Assembly: GCF_003688915.1 (NCBI RefSeq)
Contig: NZ_REFU01000001.1
Coordinates: 2,356,001 to 2,420,000, forward strand
DNA length: 64,000 bases
Reading direction: 5' to 3'
Source of the DNA: Rhodococcus sp. SBT000017
Lineage (GTDB): Bacteria > Actinomycetota > Actinomycetes > Mycobacteriales > Mycobacteriaceae
The stretch's first letter is position 1. The number at the start of each line of letters is the position of its first letter. Below, piece by piece: positions 1,940-6,849 of the stretch. The notes below the pieces were generated by a model that saw only the letters and a list, made by a program, of their open reading frames with translations, had not been told where the DNA came from and did not search any database. The position numbers and the translations under genes are program-made.

Positions 1940-2718
1940 GTGCGCACACTTCTCATCGGACTCGCCAGCCTGCTGGCCCTCGCGCTCGTGGTGGATTTCG
2001 GCGCTGCGGCCTACTCGGAGTACCGAGTCTCCCGCGCAATCCGCGCCGGCGGTGAGCTCACCTCGGACCCTCAGGTGATCGTGCACGGCTTCCCGTTCCT
2101 CACCCAGGCGGCGGACGGCCACTACGAGAACATCGAGATTCGAGCGCAGGACGTTCCGACCGAGTACGTCGGCTCGACGACGATCGAGGCCAATCTCCGC
2201 GGCGTGCACATCGCACTGCCCGACCTGGTCGACAACAACGTGCGGGCGATCCCGGTGGACGAGCTCGACGGCCGCGTCCGTATCGAGGCCACGGACCTCG
2301 GCCAGTTCCTCGGCATCGTCGACCTGCAGGTTTCCGCACCTCCGGCCGACAAGTCGGACGGCACCGGCGGTTCCGGTGGGTCGGGCAAGACCACGACCGG
2401 GGGCGTCGTGCTGACCGGAACGGTTCCGGTCGGCCCCTCGAGACGACGGTGAGCGTCCAGGCCGACCTGTTGCTCGAGGGTGACAGCGTCGCCATCGTCG
2501 CGACGGACTTCTACTTCGGCCCGGAGGGTCAGGCAGACTTCTCGATTCCCGAGTTCGCCAAGCCCACGGTCCTCGGACTGTTCACCAAGACCATCGAGCG
2601 TCAGAGCCTGCCCTTCGGACTCCTGCCGACCGACGTCTACGCGGAGGGCTCACAGATAGTCGTCGAAGGATCGGGCGAGAACGTGACCATCGACCTCAAC
2701 GAGATCGAAAAGCCGTGA
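1940..2718 (+). pseudogene. lmeA: LmeA-like DUF2993 protein, frameshifted
   Basis: LmeA (DUF2993) proteins are mannan-binding envelope proteins needed for lipomannan elongation in mycobacteria. Here the reading frame is split. A first part (GTG at 1940, hydrophobic anchor at residues 3-20) runs into a stop at 2450-2452. The rest continues in another frame to 2718. Restoring one C in the CCCC run at 2434-2437 joins them through VGPLETTVSVQ and gives about 259 residues, the usual family length. The position beside glnR and upstream of the thioredoxin gene matches Rv0817c. It could be a sequencing error, phase variation or a real lesion; the sequence alone does not decide. Confidence 0.8.
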
Positions 2719-3134
2719 CAGGGATCACAGTCCTGGCCGTCGTGGCGATCCTTGCCGTCGCTACCGGATTGTTCCTCCGCAGCCGATCGGGTGCGGTGCG
2801 GGCAGTGCGGAACACCGACTCCGAGACCGACACTCTGTACCCACTCCTGCTCGACGCGGGCGCCACGACCGACTCCGCGACCGTGCTGCACTTCTCGGCG
2901 GACTGGTGCGGACCGTGCGCAGCCGTGCGACGCGTCGTCCAGCAGGTGTTGGACGATCGAAGCGATGCCCGGGAACTCGAACTCGACATCGACGCCCATC
3001 CGATCCTCGCTCGTGAACTGGGCGTGCTGTCACTGCCCACGACGTTCGTCCTCGACACCACCTTGCAACGGCGCTCCAGAATCGCGGGGGTGCCGTCTGC
3101 GGCGGCACTACGGTCGGCGCTCGACGCACTGTGA
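2715..3134 (+). CDS. Membrane-anchored thioredoxin-family protein
   Basis: A 139-residue thiol-disulfide protein with one N-terminal membrane segment (about residues 3-22) followed by a thioredoxin fold that faces the outside. The redox motif WCGPC is at residues 64-68, and the cis-proline segment reads SLPTTFVLD. GTG is the start and overlaps the lmeA stop by four bases, so translation is probably coupled. It corresponds in place and type to mycobacterial Rv0816c (called thiX). A role in supplying reductant to the sulfurtransferases downstream is plausible but inferred from position only. Confidence 0.9.
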   Translation: MTGITVLAVVAILAVATGLFLRSRSGAVRAVRNTDSETDTLYPLLLDAGATTDSATVLHFSADWCGPCAAVRRVVQQVLDDRSDARELELDIDAHPILARELGVLSLPTTFVLDTTLQRRSRIAGVPSAAALRSALDAL

Positions 3135-3179
3135 CCTCGCCTCTTCGGGCCGGCGGTAGGACGCGCCGCTGGTAGCGGG

Positions 3180-3185
3180 TACGAT
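3180..3185 (+). promoter_or_regulatory. -10 element of the cysteine-leader transcript
   Basis: TACGAT ends seven bases before a GTG codon at 3193. This is the spacing expected when transcription starts on the first base of the start codon, giving a leaderless mRNA. No ribosome binding site precedes the GTG. Confidence 0.6.
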
Positions 3186-3192
3186 GCTCTTC

Positions 3193-3279
3193 GTGTTCTC
3201 CCGCCGCGAGCTGATGCTCACCAGTCGTCGCACAGTTGATCTGTGCCGACTGGGCGGTTGTTGCTGTCGCTGCTGCTGA
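3193..3279 (+). CDS. Leaderless cysteine-rich leader peptide (attenuator)
   Basis: A 28-codon ORF starting with leaderless GTG. It encodes an Arg-rich first half and ends in GGCCCRCC just before TGA: six cysteines, five of them in the last six residues. Mycobacteria use leaderless polycysteine sORFs upstream of sulfur operons, including the cysA2/sseC operon, as cysteine-responsive attenuators: stalling at Cys codons when cysteine is scarce exposes the downstream ribosome binding site. This ORF lies in the same place, 108 bases before the DUF4395-rhodanese-sseC genes. An internal in-frame ATG at 3214 would give a 21-residue version. Confidence 0.82.
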   Translation: MFSRRELMLTSRRTVDLCRLGGCCCRCC

Positions 3280-3387
3280 TTTCCTTCTGCCGCCACGCCC
3301 ATGCGTGATGTACGGCCCGATGATCGAAATCCACGTCCGAGCACTGCCGATGCGGCGTGCCCCGGCCTCGCACAGGAGTACCTCTCG

Positions 3388-3864
3388 ATGTCGACACCCG
3401 ACACCCGGACCACCATCCCCACTGCCACGATCGACCAGGTGGACGTTCGCGGTCCGCGCTTCGCAGCGTGGATCACCACCGCCGTTCTGGTCGTCGTTCT
3501 CCTCCTGACCACGTTCTCGGTCCCCGCGGCGGCAATCCTGCTCGGGCTACAGGCGATCGTGTTCGGAATCGGAGCCGTCCGCGGACCCAAGCGCAGTCCG
3601 TACGGCACGATCTTCGCGACATTCGTCGCACCGCGGCTCTCCCCCACCAGCGAACGTGAGCCGGTCGCACCGTTGAAGTTCGCTCAACTGGTGGGCTTCG
3701 TGTTCGCCGCCGTGGGAGTTCTCGGCTTCGCGCTCGGCGCTCCCGTCGTCGGCACCGTGGCGGCAGGCTTCGCGTTGTTCGCGGCCTTCCTCAATGCCGC
3801 GTTCGCGGTGTGCCTCGGCTGCATGATCTACCCCCTCGCCGCGCGACTGCGCACCACTGCTTGA
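3388..3864 (+). CDS. DUF4395 membrane protein
   Basis: A 158-residue integral membrane protein of the DUF4395 family. About four hydrophobic segments are visible after a polar N-terminus, and the C-terminus carries the family CLGC cysteine pair. The ATG at 3388 follows AGGAG at 3374-3378. It is the first full gene after the cysteine leader peptide and sits 38 bases before the rhodanese gene. This neighbourhood is common in actinobacteria and suggests a role in sulfur transfer or thiol chemistry at the membrane. The biochemical function is unknown to me. Confidence 0.8.
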   Translation: MSTPDTRTTIPTATIDQVDVRGPRFAAWITTAVLVVVLLLTTFSVPAAAILLGLQAIVFGIGAVRGPKRSPYGTIFATFVAPRLSPTSEREPVAPLKFAQLVGFVFAAVGVLGFALGAPVVGTVAAGFALFAAFLNAAFAVCLGCMIYPLAARLRTTA

Positions 3865-3902
3865 CCCTCACCGATCCGTAAAGAAAGACCGAAAGGAACA
3901 CC

Positions 3903-4739
3903 ATGGCTCGCTCCGACGTCCTGGTCTCTGCCGACTGGGCCGAGCAGAACCTGAACGCACCGAAGACCGTCTTCGTCGAGGTCGACGAAGACGCAAGCGC
4001 CTACGACGGCGGACACATCGAAGGTGCGGTCAAGCTCGACTGGCGCAAGGACCTGCAGGACCCGGTTCGCCGCGACTTCCTCAATCAGGAGCAGTTCTCG
4101 GATCTGCTGTCGGCCAAGGGCATCAGCAACGACGACACCATTGTCCTGTACGGCGGAAACAACAACTGGTTCGCTGCCTACGCCTACTGGTACTTCAAGC
4201 TTTACGGCCACAAGGACGTCAAGCTCATCGACGGTGGACGCAAGAAGTGGGAACTCGACGGCCGGGCGCTGTCCAAGGACGTCGTCAGCCGCGAGACCAC
4301 TCAGTACCGCGCCGAGGCACCCGACCTGTCGATCCGTGCGTTCCGCGACGAGGTCATCGACGCCATCGGCAACAAGAACCTGATCGACGTGCGTTCGCCC
4401 GACGAGTTCTCGGGCAAGATCCTCGCCCCGGCTCACCTTCCGCAGGAGCAGGCTCAGCAGCGTGGCCACGTGCCGTCCGCGATCAACATCCCGTGGAGCA
4501 CGACCGCCAACGAGGACGGCACGTTCAAGTCCGACGAGGCGCTCGAAGAGCTGTACAAGACCAAGGGCTACGACGACAGCAAGGCCACCATCGCCTACTG
4601 CCGCATCGGTGAGCGTTCGAGCCACACCTGGTTCGTCCTCAAGGAGCTTCTGGGCAAGGAAGACGTCAAGAACTACGACGGCAGCTGGGTCGAATACGGC
4701 TCCCTCGTCGGAGCACCCATCGAGTTGGAGGTTCACTGA
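3903..4739 (+). CDS. cysA: Thiosulfate sulfurtransferase (rhodanese)
   Basis: Cytosolic two-domain rhodanese of 278 residues that moves sulfane sulfur from thiosulfate to an acceptor. The N-terminal inactive domain and the C-terminal catalytic domain are both complete. The active cysteine is Cys233 in AYCRIGERSS, the same residue number as in mycobacterial CysA2. AAAGGA precedes the ATG. It lies between DUF4395 and sseC in the leader-controlled operon. The name CysA for this enzyme is the mycobacterial usage (also SseA) and must not be confused with the sulfate-transport ATPase. Confidence 0.95.
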   Translation: MARSDVLVSADWAEQNLNAPKTVFVEVDEDASAYDGGHIEGAVKLDWRKDLQDPVRRDFLNQEQFSDLLSAKGISNDDTIVLYGGNNNWFAAYAYWYFKLYGHKDVKLIDGGRKKWELDGRALSKDVVSRETTQYRAEAPDLSIRAFRDEVIDAIGNKNLIDVRSPDEFSGKILAPAHLPQEQAQQRGHVPSAINIPWSTTANEDGTFKSDEALEELYKTKGYDDSKATIAYCRIGERSSHTWFVLKELLGKEDVKNYDGSWVEYGSLVGAPIELEVH

Positions 4740-4740
4740 T

Positions 4741-5046
4741 ATGTGTGGAGCACCCTTACAGGGCCAGACCATCCCCGCAGGCGTCGACGTCGAGAAGGAA
4801 ACGGTCATCACCGGCCGCGTCCTCGCAGGCGACGGTGAGCCCGTAGCAGGCGCGTTCGTCCGGCTGCTCGACGGCAGCGGCGAATTCACCGCAGAGGTCG
4901 TCGCGTCGGGCACCGGAGACTTCCGGTTCTTCGCCGCTCCCGGACAGTGGACGCTGCGTGCACTGTCGGCATCGGGCAACGGCGACACCGTGATCGCTCC
5001 CGAGGGCGCAGGCGTGCACTCGGCGAACGTCACCGTCGGAGTCTGA
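4741..5046 (+). CDS. sseC: SseC, DUF1416 protein
   Basis: A 101-residue DUF1416 protein starting MCGAPLQGQ, with a beta-rich carboxypeptidase-regulatory-like fold expected for the family. It starts one base after the rhodanese stop, so it is in the same operon. Partnering with CysA-type rhodaneses is conserved across actinobacteria and a role in sulfation or sulfur transfer has been proposed, but the reaction is not established. Cys2 is conserved in the family. The operon ends at the hairpin at 5071-5108. Confidence 0.93.
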   Translation: MCGAPLQGQTIPAGVDVEKETVITGRVLAGDGEPVAGAFVRLLDGSGEFTAEVVASGTGDFRFFAAPGQWTLRALSASGNGDTVIAPEGAGVHSANVTVGV

Positions 5047-5070
5047 TCCCACCGCTCGTACCGAACGAGA

Positions 5071-5108
5071 AAAGAACCCCGCACCTGCGAGCAGGTGCGG
5101 GGTTCTTT
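5071..5108. terminator. Bidirectional terminator hairpin
   Basis: A perfect 18-bp inverted repeat starting AAAGAACCCCGC, separated by only two bases (GA) and ending in TTCTTT. It sits between convergent sseC and the cutinase-like gene and has a T-rich tail on either strand, so it can end both transcripts. Confidence 0.9.
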
Positions 5109-5124
5109 CGGTCCAGCGGAGGTT

Positions 5125-6630
5125 CTAGTTGGGAACGGGTGCAGAGGCCGCCGGGTCGGGAACCGTCGAGTACTGCGGCGGGAACATCCCTTCCGGCACT
5201 GGAATCCCCTGAGATTCGAGGAACGCTCCGAGATCGCTGACCCTCGTCTGCGTTCCCGGCACCGGGAGCAGTCGGGGTTCGGGTGCAGCCTCGGGAGCGG
5301 GGGCTTCCGGTATGACTGCCTCGGGCGCGTTCTTCTTCTCGCGTTCGGTGCGCGCGAGATCGGTGACCCAGGCCACCACCTTCTCACTTTCCCACTCGTA
5401 GCCGTCGTTGGGATCGTTGTACCAGTACGACAGATGCTGCAGGAATCCGATCGCCAGGTAGGGCCCGAGCACGACATCGGCGATGCCCTTGTTGTTCTCC
5501 TCGAACCCTGTGGCCTCGGCACGGAGCTTGGCTTCCACGGTCTCGGCACCGGGCCCCATCGCCCAGTTGAGATCGGCGAGGAGCTGCTCCGGCGTGAGAG
5601 CGTCGACCGCCTGCTGATCGGCGACCGTGTAGTCCACGTCCGCGACCTTCACCAGAACCTGCAGCAGTGTTTCGTCGGATTCGAGCCAGGCCTTGTTGGT
5701 TGCGATGTCGATGATCGCGCGGGTGGCGATGGTCGACACTGCCCGCGCGAAGTCGGCCACGGTCTGCACCGGGTTGACCAGCGTCATCCGCATCTGCGAG
5801 ATGATCTCGAGTGCCAACTGCGCGAGCTCGATGTCGGCCGGAGCGTCGCACGACAGATCGTAGGGCCGGCACGACCAGCTGACCTTGTCGGTCAGCGTGC
5901 CGTAGTCCCGGGGGGACTGGTCCATGAACCCGCCGAGCGATTCACCGGGCTCGTCCCCGAAGTTCGGCACACCGGCCGGACGATAGGGCGAGCCGATCAT
6001 CATCACGCCTGCGATGTCGTCGCCGCTGATCAGCGCGCCGGGGTCGCGTCGGCCGATGTCGACGGCCAGCCGGTCGAGGACCTCTCCGCCGACGCTGTAG
6101 CCGACGAGAACGAACTTCGTGCGGTCACCGCACTTGGTCTTGTACTCGTCCAGCAGCCGATTGGTCGACGCGACGCCGTCCCTGATCGACTCCTGATACG
6201 TGGCCACGTCGTCCAGGAAGCCGACACCGTAGGTCGATGTGTAGGGGACGTACAGCCAGCCGACCGTGCCGGGGGTGCCTGCGTTCACCTCACCGGTGGG
6301 AACGGTGACGTTCCCGACCCAGTTGGATGCGACGGTCTGCGATTCCTCGTTGAGAGGGTTGCGACCCGAATCCGAGTCGGTGGCACCGGACACGGCCAAC
6401 ATCAACACGTCCGGGCAGTCCTGCGCATAGTTGTTGGGGTCGATGTTCGGGCCCTGCGAAGACCCGAAGTCGGACGATCCGGAGTCGGACGATCCCGACT
6501 CTGCCGATCCCGAGTCCGGAGCGGCGAGCGCAGCTGCGGGAGCGGCTAGCGCCAACGCCAGAGTCACCACCGCGGACCTGAACAACACGGATCCGAACGA
6601 CGATGTCAGAGCCCGTTTACGACGCAGCAT
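5125..6630 (-). CDS. Secreted cutinase-like alpha/beta hydrolase
   Basis: A 501-residue exported hydrolase. An RRKR n-region and a hydrophobic stretch ending ALAAP form a signal peptide. A Ser/Gly/Asp-rich linker then leads to a cutinase-like domain beginning DCPDVLMLAVSGA. The nucleophile elbow is GYSVGG (about residues 165-170). A further region of about 250 residues, ending in a Pro/Ala-rich tail, makes it much longer than simple cutinases. The ATG at 6630 is chosen because GGGAGG lies ten bases upstream. The substrate is unknown; mycobacterial relatives act on esters of envelope lipids. It stands alone, convergent with sseC. Confidence 0.8.
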   Translation of the reverse strand: MLRRKRALTSSFGSVLFRSAVVTLALALAAPAAALAAPDSGSAESGSSDSGSSDFGSSQGPNIDPNNYAQDCPDVLMLAVSGATDSDSGRNPLNEESQTVASNWVGNVTVPTGEVNAGTPGTVGWLYVPYTSTYGVGFLDDVATYQESIRDGVASTNRLLDEYKTKCGDRTKFVLVGYSVGGEVLDRLAVDIGRRDPGALISGDDIAGVMMIGSPYRPAGVPNFGDEPGESLGGFMDQSPRDYGTLTDKVSWSCRPYDLSCDAPADIELAQLALEIISQMRMTLVNPVQTVADFARAVSTIATRAIIDIATNKAWLESDETLLQVLVKVADVDYTVADQQAVDALTPEQLLADLNWAMGPGAETVEAKLRAEATGFEENNKGIADVVLGPYLAIGFLQHLSYWYNDPNDGYEWESEKVVAWVTDLARTEREKKNAPEAVIPEAPAPEAAPEPRLLPVPGTQTRVSDLGAFLESQGIPVPEGMFPPQYSTVPDPAASAPVPN

Positions 6631-6849
6631 TATTGCGGAGACCTCCCCAGCCTTCGTGACAGAACACAGTGAACAACGTCGGAAATTCACCCTCGAGCGC
6701 CCGACGCCCCCCGAAGAAGGTACCTGCTCGACGCCGTTTCTCCACCGTTACGAGTGATCCACCGCACTGATGACCCCCAATTCGGTTAGATGTCACCAAG
6801 GACACAGTGCAGATTCGGGCCGCTGTTCTCGATCAGGATCGCTGCGGGT

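Follow-up and report, generated by a model that had tools for sequence, protein, structure and literature searches.

A conserved cysteine-rich leader peptide of leaderless geometry ahead of the DUF4395–rhodanese–sseC operon in Rhodococcus

What does the short cysteine-rich open reading frame (ORF) ahead of the DUF4395–rhodanese–sseC operon do, and is it the Cys codons or the peptide itself that matters? We analyzed the locus in the window, a stretch of 64,000 nt that lies within a single contig of the 5.65 Mb genome of a soil actinobacterium. The genus of the window was taken as the fascians group of Rhodococcus (Rhodococcoides); among the named genomes, the nearest DUF4395 proteins are those of Rhodococcus sp. 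14-1411-2a, 06-235-1A, and 14-2483-1-2, followed by that of Rhodococcoides fascians.

The sequence GCTCTTC (7 nt) separates the hexamer TACGAT from the GTG at 3193, and the product of the ORF, VFSRRELMLTSRRTVDLCRLGGCCCRCC, ends at a TGA (3277–3279). The peptide contains six cysteines (residues 18, 23, 24, 25, 27, and 28), five of them among the final six residues; of the 1975 stop codons that the window holds on its two strands, that of the leader alone is preceded by at least five Cys codons within six codons. The initial annotation had described a −10 box 7 bases ahead of the GTG of a 28-codon ORF with five Cys in its last six residues, directly upstream of DUF4395–rhodanese–sseC with an AGGAG at 3374, and our analysis recovered all of these features (Table 1), the cysteines at residues 23–28, the three genes through matches to PF14340, PF00581, and PF07210, and the ribosome-binding site (RBS) ahead of ATG 3388. 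The gene upstream of the leader carries a thioredoxin domain. As a sigma-70 scan of 2700–5200 gave no promoter-like site, the leader start lacks consensus −35 support. A search of Rfam with 3193–3387 gave no match up to E = 1. An alternative start of DUF4395 at ATG 3301 is in frame, but it has no good Shine–Dalgarno (SD) sequence, and an ATG at this position appeared in only three of the loci listed (L006, L028, which is the window's own locus, and L030); it was rejected. On the minus strand, an open frame of 179 codons (3108–3647) spans the leader in antisense, and annotation could mistake it for a gene. Hairpins resembling terminators lie on either strand at 5078–5122, between sseC and a convergent gene (5125–6690), whose match to carboxylesterase Culp6 is far under the cut-off.

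Table 1. Features of the leader locus (positions in the window) and further leaders found in the same genome (positions by genome and contig).
Feature	Position	Strand	Evidence or context
−10 hexamer TACGAT, candidate leaderless promoter	3180–3185	+	sequence; TANNNT 6–8 nt from start in 87/87 loci
Leaderless 28-codon leader-peptide ORF, GTG start, TGA stop	3193–3279	+	NF042933 and NF042934 matches; pN/pS 0.07 (genus)
Conserved core L-T-x-R-R-x-V-D-L-C-R-x5-C (Leu D−7 to Cys D+9)	3217–3267	+	100 unique peptides
Cys-rich tail CCCRCC	3259–3276	+	Cys codons at 3259, 3262, 3265, 3271, 3274; sixth at 3244
108-nt spacer, leader stop to DUF4395 start	3280–3387	+	scan: 0 terminator-like sites
AGGAG ribosome-binding site of first operon gene	3374–3378	+	sequence
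DUF4395 protein, operon gene 1, ATG 3388	3388–3864	+	PF14340, E 2e-41
Rhodanese-type sulfurtransferase (cysA2-like)	3903–4739	+	PF00581, E 1.2e-35; downstream of leader in 87/87 loci
DUF1416/sseC	4741–5046	+	PF07210, E 9.5e-43
NirA-type leader VTDSGIRLVARRHVDLGRVCSASCRHTTGC	G000:C1:304707–304796 (L040, L214)	−	leaderless-looking; before NirA-type (sulfite/nitrite) reductase
Symporter leader VNPLLTSRRYVDLRLQASATC, 21 codons, single terminal Cys	G000:C2:62577–62639 (L042, L246, L263)	+	before SDF-type symporter (PF00375)
Fourth leader VTETHVTDAARRLVRRRTIDFGLVCTSSCS, TATTGT + 7 nt + GTG	G000:C2:436230–436319 (L261)	−	before OsmC and O-acetylhomoserine sulfhydrylase

The leader was compared with profile models of annotated leader peptides. 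Against leader_Ms5788A (NF042933), the model of the cysA2 leader of M. smegmatis and M. tuberculosis, it gave an E-value of 2.1e-9 and 36.9 bits and did not reach the cut-off of 45, and against cis_reg_atten (NF042934) it reached 27.8 bits, above the cut-off of 27. The comparison of the same region in other Rhodococcus genomes, which the initial annotation had proposed, found the leader in all 37 genomes of the genus, with a best NF042933 E-value per genome of at most 1.2e-6. At E ≤ 1e-4, NF042933 matched in 237 of the 301 family genomes, covering 25 of the 31 genera, and scored over the cut-off in 21 of these genomes, whereas none of 14 control genomes gave a match; at loose limits, matches appeared in 7 of the 14 controls (E ≤ 1) or 10 of the 14 (E ≤ 10), none over the cut-off. 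NF042934 matched, at E ≤ 1e-4, in 181 of the 296 genomes of the class, which come from 72 of its 114 genera, again in none of the 14 controls, and at up to 11 places per genome. Among the 64 family genomes without an NF042933 match, 14 were checked for sseC: nine lacked the gene and five had it. Reading the locus in these five revealed a leader in three (L304, L305, and L306) and none in L307 and L308. The window leader fits the motif L..R..[VIM]DL.R with a Cys at D+9 (D16, C25, stop after codon 28), and the motif, this Cys, and an early stop were present in all 55 class members read, all of them picked by NF042934. Judging from these matches, the window leader belongs to the already known Ms5788A/cis_reg_atten kind of leader.

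To describe the geometry, 87 loci were read: 37 from the genus, the 30 best matches within the family, and 20 chosen to cover 19 further genera. With the in-frame start carrying the hexamer chosen where starts competed (here and in the named set below), and with related species counting as non-independent samples, a TANNNT hexamer was found 6–8 nt ahead of the ATG or GTG of a 24–30-codon leader in 87 of 87 loci, at exactly 7 nt in 76; the start codon was GTG in 80 and ATG in 7. Before other ATG or GTG codons of the same 87 loci, the hexamer occurred at this spacing in 26 of 6239 cases (0.4%). A DUF4395 gene stood between leader and rhodanese gene in 76 loci, and a thioredoxin gene upstream in 77. 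Moreover, 77 of the 80 named DUF4395 loci carry the leader, each with the hexamer (77/77); the filter returned no leader at the other three (L152, L172, and L176). Outside the family, the TANNNT rule held for 32 of the 55 class leaders. These comparisons bear out the earlier claim that a Cys-rich leader ORF of leaderless type stands at the counterpart of the mycobacterial operon.

We then asked which residues are conserved. A set of 100 unique peptides was assembled from the NF042933 matches and the named loci that passed a filter (R[RL].[VI][DE], with three or more Cys among the last 11 residues). Counted from the Asp, L(−7), T(−6), R(−4), R(−3), C(+2), R(+3), and C(+9) occur in all 100, D in 99, C(+8) in 97, C(+7) in 93, and C(+11) in 86. 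The counts for R(−4) and D are partly circular because the filter selects for both; the R[RL].[VI][DE] anchor was nevertheless found in all 87 loci detected by the profile. L304, which lies outside the 100-peptide set, has Leu at −3. In the 55 class peptides from outside the family, hand-picked for spread among the matches listed, R(−4), D, L(+1), R(+3), and C(+9) occur in 55 each and L(−7) in 54, the count for C(+9) being partly circular because the NF042934 match ends at that Cys. Core and tail together hold a single Cys in 13 of these peptides and CCC in none, and the stop follows 0–11 codons past C(+9). Two further class loci (L121 and L127) were clipped and left out of the 55, their peptides being visible, and L110 and L124 had no motif match. 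Free of both selections, by profile and by filter, are the leaders of two species of one family genus (L305 and L306), which have no profile match: MVVRLTSRRALDQGRCSSQLCPAS and MGLCLTSRRALDQGRCSSQLCPLS precede the same DUF4395 operon, TATGCT standing seven nt ahead of the ATG in the first and six nt in the second. They have no Cys run and keep LTSRR..D..R, the Arg at D+3, and the Cys at D+9. The conserved motif and one Cys at fixed spacing thus persist in two orthologues that lack the Cys run.

Selection on the frame was evaluated by comparing nonsynonymous and synonymous divergence. Within the genus, the core gave a pN/pS of 0.070 (20 distinct sequences) and of 0.079 when the Cys codons were removed (19 distinct), and the other two frames gave 2.3 and 4.8; across all 87 loci the values were 0.276 and, without the Cys codons, 0.315. 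These ratios indicate that the peptide, and more of it than its Cys codons, is under selection. For comparison with the rhodanese gene, 26 genomes of the genus were used, 11 of the 37 having been dropped since their rhodanese frame was not 278 codons long. The 18-codon core showed a pS of 0.251 and a pN of 0.019, the rhodanese gene a pS of 0.274 and a pN of 0.032, and 18-codon rhodanese windows were as low as the core in 40% of cases by pN and in 37% by pS. The four codons ahead of the core gave a pS of 0.160 and a pN of 0.263, and the conserved core begins sharply at Glu6. The core is kept as a peptide about as well as a stretch of conserved enzyme, with no clear extra constraint on the RNA. 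A few codons vary very little; for example, the CTC of the LT pair is nearly frozen (86 of 87 loci), and the first Cys codon of the tail (3259–3261) is TGT in 79 of 87 loci, while eight neighbouring genes use 11 TGC versus 4 TGT. A CACAG/CUGUG hairpin inside the ORF was considered as a sensor and not adopted because its variable pairs change on a single side and because synonymous sites show no drop in divergence compared with rhodanese.

The same genome holds further candidate leaders (Table 1); the gene downstream of each was checked in this genome, and that of VTETHVTDAARRLVRRRTIDFGLVCTSSCS in G009 as well. Against leader_Ms4527A (NF042936), VTDSGIRLVARRHVDLGRVCSASCRHTTGC gave an E-value of 2.3e-9 and 36.7 bits, below the cut-off of 45. 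At E ≤ 0.1 it has a match in each of the 37 genus genomes, in seven of them at only about 1e-3. From 30 of these 37 genomes, loci of this sirA leader were taken, 27 of which matched the regular expression; in all 27, CACAAT lies 6–7 nt ahead of the start, a looser rule than TANNNT. Matches to VNPLLTSRRYVDLRLQASATC were found in 28 of the 37 genomes, and TANNNT stood at 7 nt in all 20 loci read of these 28. The SDF-type symporter behind it reads, in this genome, as separate pieces of 283 and 128 aa that share a frame. VTETHVTDAARRLVRRRTIDFGLVCTSSCS matched the leader models weakly (NF042936, E 0.03). All three peptides have a Cys at D+9, and VTDSGIRLVARRHVDLGRVCSASCRHTTGC alone has the Arg at D+3. 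A weak profile match also lies at G000:C1:4257525. The TGYTGYNNNTGYTGYTGA pattern matched three times in the genome (the window and two other places), versus four matches for the reversed control pattern; of the two other matches, one ends a frame with 12 Cys and the other a frame that lacks the core.

Direct support from these sequence comparisons extends to the ORF, to its synteny, to the conservation of its leaderless geometry, and to selection acting on the peptide. Our main reading, to which we give a probability of roughly 0.75, is that the ORF encodes a cis-acting cysteine leader peptide on a leaderless transcript, which would raise expression of DUF4395–rhodanese–sseC when cysteine is scarce. 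RNA polymerase would start at or beside GTG 3193, and ribosomes would load straight onto the 5′ end of the mRNA. With cysteinyl-tRNA scarce, they would slow or stop near Cys codon 25, nine residues past Asp16, with the nascent LTSRRTVDLCR in the exit tunnel probably assisting the stall, and the parked ribosome would lead to more expression of DUF4395–rhodanese–sseC. In this scheme the transcription start, the cysteine response, and the stalling are inferred, as is the direction of control, which follows the work on M. smegmatis. The conserved part of the peptide is largely non-Cys, suggesting that the peptide itself may help to stop the ribosome.

How would a parked ribosome act on the operon? 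In M. smegmatis, according to what is reportedly Canestrari's finding of 2020, the Cys codons form a clamp on the next RBS. Leaders with a clear SD were folded and the cost of opening the RBS was computed with and without a 28-nt block. From the 87-locus set, 22 leaders without a clear SD or start were dropped, and likewise 18 of the 77 of the named set, which left 36 mycobacterial leaders (at most two of them from unassigned Mycobacteriaceae), six Nocardia-like leaders (R. tukisamuensis and Prescottella being placed here), and 17 of fascians-group Rhodococcus. A block centred 12 nt before the stop lowered the predicted RBS cost by a mean of 3.9 kcal/mol in the mycobacterial leaders (by more than 1 in 31 of 36) and by 2.5 in the Nocardia-like ones (by more than 1 in 4 of 6). 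In the fascians group, the same block changed it by +1.2 kcal/mol and lowered it by more than 1 in 0 of 17; at other positions of the block, it was lowered in 1 of 17 (−6) and in 3 of 17 (at +6 and at −78). The 87-locus set, which shares part of its genomes with the named set, gave +1.05 in the genus (lowered in 1 of 27) and −1.9 outside it (18 of 38). RNAalifold on 14 close relatives gave a structure in which the Cys tract pairs with both flanks of the SD, with no two-sided changes and at 3.5–19.7 kcal/mol above each sequence's own optimum. RNAduplex of Cys tract and SD versus shuffles gave no excess (mean z +0.3 for 65 leaders, −0.2 for the 38 outside the genus); as neither group showed one, this test, unlike the ensemble test, does not single out mycobacteria. 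Folding models thus recover the mycobacterial clamp in mycobacteria but not in the fascians group, with RNAalifold disagreeing, so the published clamp cannot simply be assumed for the fascians group of Rhodococcus. The initial annotation had suggested that the pyrimidine-rich TTTCCTTCT, which occupies 3280–3288 directly 3′ of the leader stop, might mask the RBS; in the sets folded, no more than 0.3% of RBS nucleotides are predicted to pair with the 30 nt after the stop, and we dropped this suggestion. Since single-sequence folding of the genus gives no clamp, the RNA step may be another pairing, translational coupling, or Rho-dependent termination.

Could the M. smegmatis mechanism hold here unchanged, the Cys codons alone mattering, pairing with the RBS, and a stalled ribosome setting it free? 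The operon and the leaderless ORF are shared, the block on the Cys tract lowers the RBS cost by about 4 kcal/mol in the 36 mycobacterial leaders, where 31% of RBS nucleotides pair with the tract, and the RNAalifold structure of the 14 window relatives contains a related pairing. However, in the genus RBS pairing with the tract falls to 6.6% (27 leaders; 3.7% for that of the window), the block brings no gain there, and control through Cys codons only leaves the pN/pS of 0.079 over the non-Cys codons unexplained; we consider the unchanged mechanism unlikely here. The leader might instead act not on the translation of DUF4395 but on Rho-dependent termination within the C-rich spacer. Such control would agree with the composition of the spacer (38% C versus 26% G in 17 Rhodococcus leaders), with the finding that a scan of 3280–3387 detected no intrinsic-terminator-like site, and with a weak prediction of 2005 for mycobacterial and P. 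acnes leaders in the accessible part of PMC1262725. Against it, mycobacterial spacers share this C excess (42% C and 26% G in 36 of them), and for mycobacteria translation attenuation is reported (PMC13236596, accessible part); we hold control through Rho to be improbable.

Two further readings put the function, if any, elsewhere. Purifying selection on the peptide resembles that on an ordinary gene and would suit a stand-alone small protein acting in trans, such as a metal- or thiol-binding peptide, but in the cases examined related peptides precede differing operons, the codons ahead of the core are free to vary, and Cys near the stop suits a position-dependent role on the ribosome; such a protein seems very unlikely to us. 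A functionless chance ORF could be entertained, expression of the leader being presumed, but its presence in 37 of 37 genomes and a pN/pS of 0.07 versus 2.3 and 4.8 in the other frames leave that reading next to no credit.

Within the main reading of a cis-acting cysteine leader peptide, the peptide-level constraint and the fixed Cys spacing fit a putative nascent-chain arrest peptide. The residue-specific constraint at the peptide level that is expected of such peptides is present, with pS as in rhodanese and a pN of 0.019. We tentatively suggest, at odds clearly short of even, that the class-wide family may be a cysteine-sensing arrest peptide, with L(T/V)xRxx(V)DL in the exit tunnel and a single Cys at D+9 near the stop; the Cys run of mycobacteria and Rhodococcus would then be a later amplifier, and in the genus of the window the arrested ribosome would act otherwise than via an RBS clamp.

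In the accessible parts of the published work, Shell and others (2015; PMC4633059) describe a Cys-containing small ORF (sORF) ahead of cysA2 in mycobacteria, and Smith and others (2022; PMC9094748) deal with a set of six in M. tuberculosis. Candidate Cys leaders of Mycobacterium, P. acnes, and B. longum were put forward, with a suggested role for Rho, by Seliverstov and others (2005; PMC1262725); the M. smegmatis work of 2020 by Canestrari is cited by PMC13236596, PMC9031893, and PMC13091356. The initial annotation had presented the leader as a new extension of this regulation outside mycobacteria. This does not stand because candidate Cys leaders of P. acnes and B. longum were published as early as 2005 (PMC1262725, accessible part), and NCBIfam models, including the class-wide cis_reg_atten, exist. 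Among the papers listed in our literature search, which covered only a minority of the subscription journals, we recognized no description of the leader in Rhodococcus and no arrest-peptide reading. As far as the accessible literature goes, cysteine attenuation in these bacteria is accounted for by the Cys codons; in our comparison the best-conserved part is the peptide motif with its Cys at fixed spacing. What is new is that conservation acts at the level of the peptide, with one Cys kept at a set distance, and that single-sequence folding of the genus shows no RBS clamp. Together they make an annotated but little-explained leader family open to short direct experiments.

Among the closest known systems is the Ms5788A leader: a leaderless short ORF with the core LT.RR.VDLCR, the same operon, and a thioredoxin gene upstream. 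The window leader differs from it in a longest Cys run of three, in its score (36.9 versus the cut-off of 45), and in a Cys tract for which single-sequence folding predicts no RBS clamp. The P. acnes and B. longum candidates, which we compared by their description in the accessible part of PMC1262725, likewise are short ORFs that precede cys or cbs genes and carry Cys codons close to their stop, and Rho-dependent termination was proposed for them there. With cis_reg_atten, the leader shares a 19-residue core whose match ends at the Cys at D+9 (27.8 versus the cut-off of 27); unlike the window leader, the 55 class members read outside the family have one to four Cys in core and tail and no CCC. 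The Ms4527A family (NF042936) is matched by the second leader of the genome, not by that of the window. Nascent-chain arrest leaders, such as TnaC, are a further point of comparison. We know of no sequence relation between them and the window leader, in which arrest is putative; the likeness lies in conserved residues at a fixed distance from a key residue near the stop codon.
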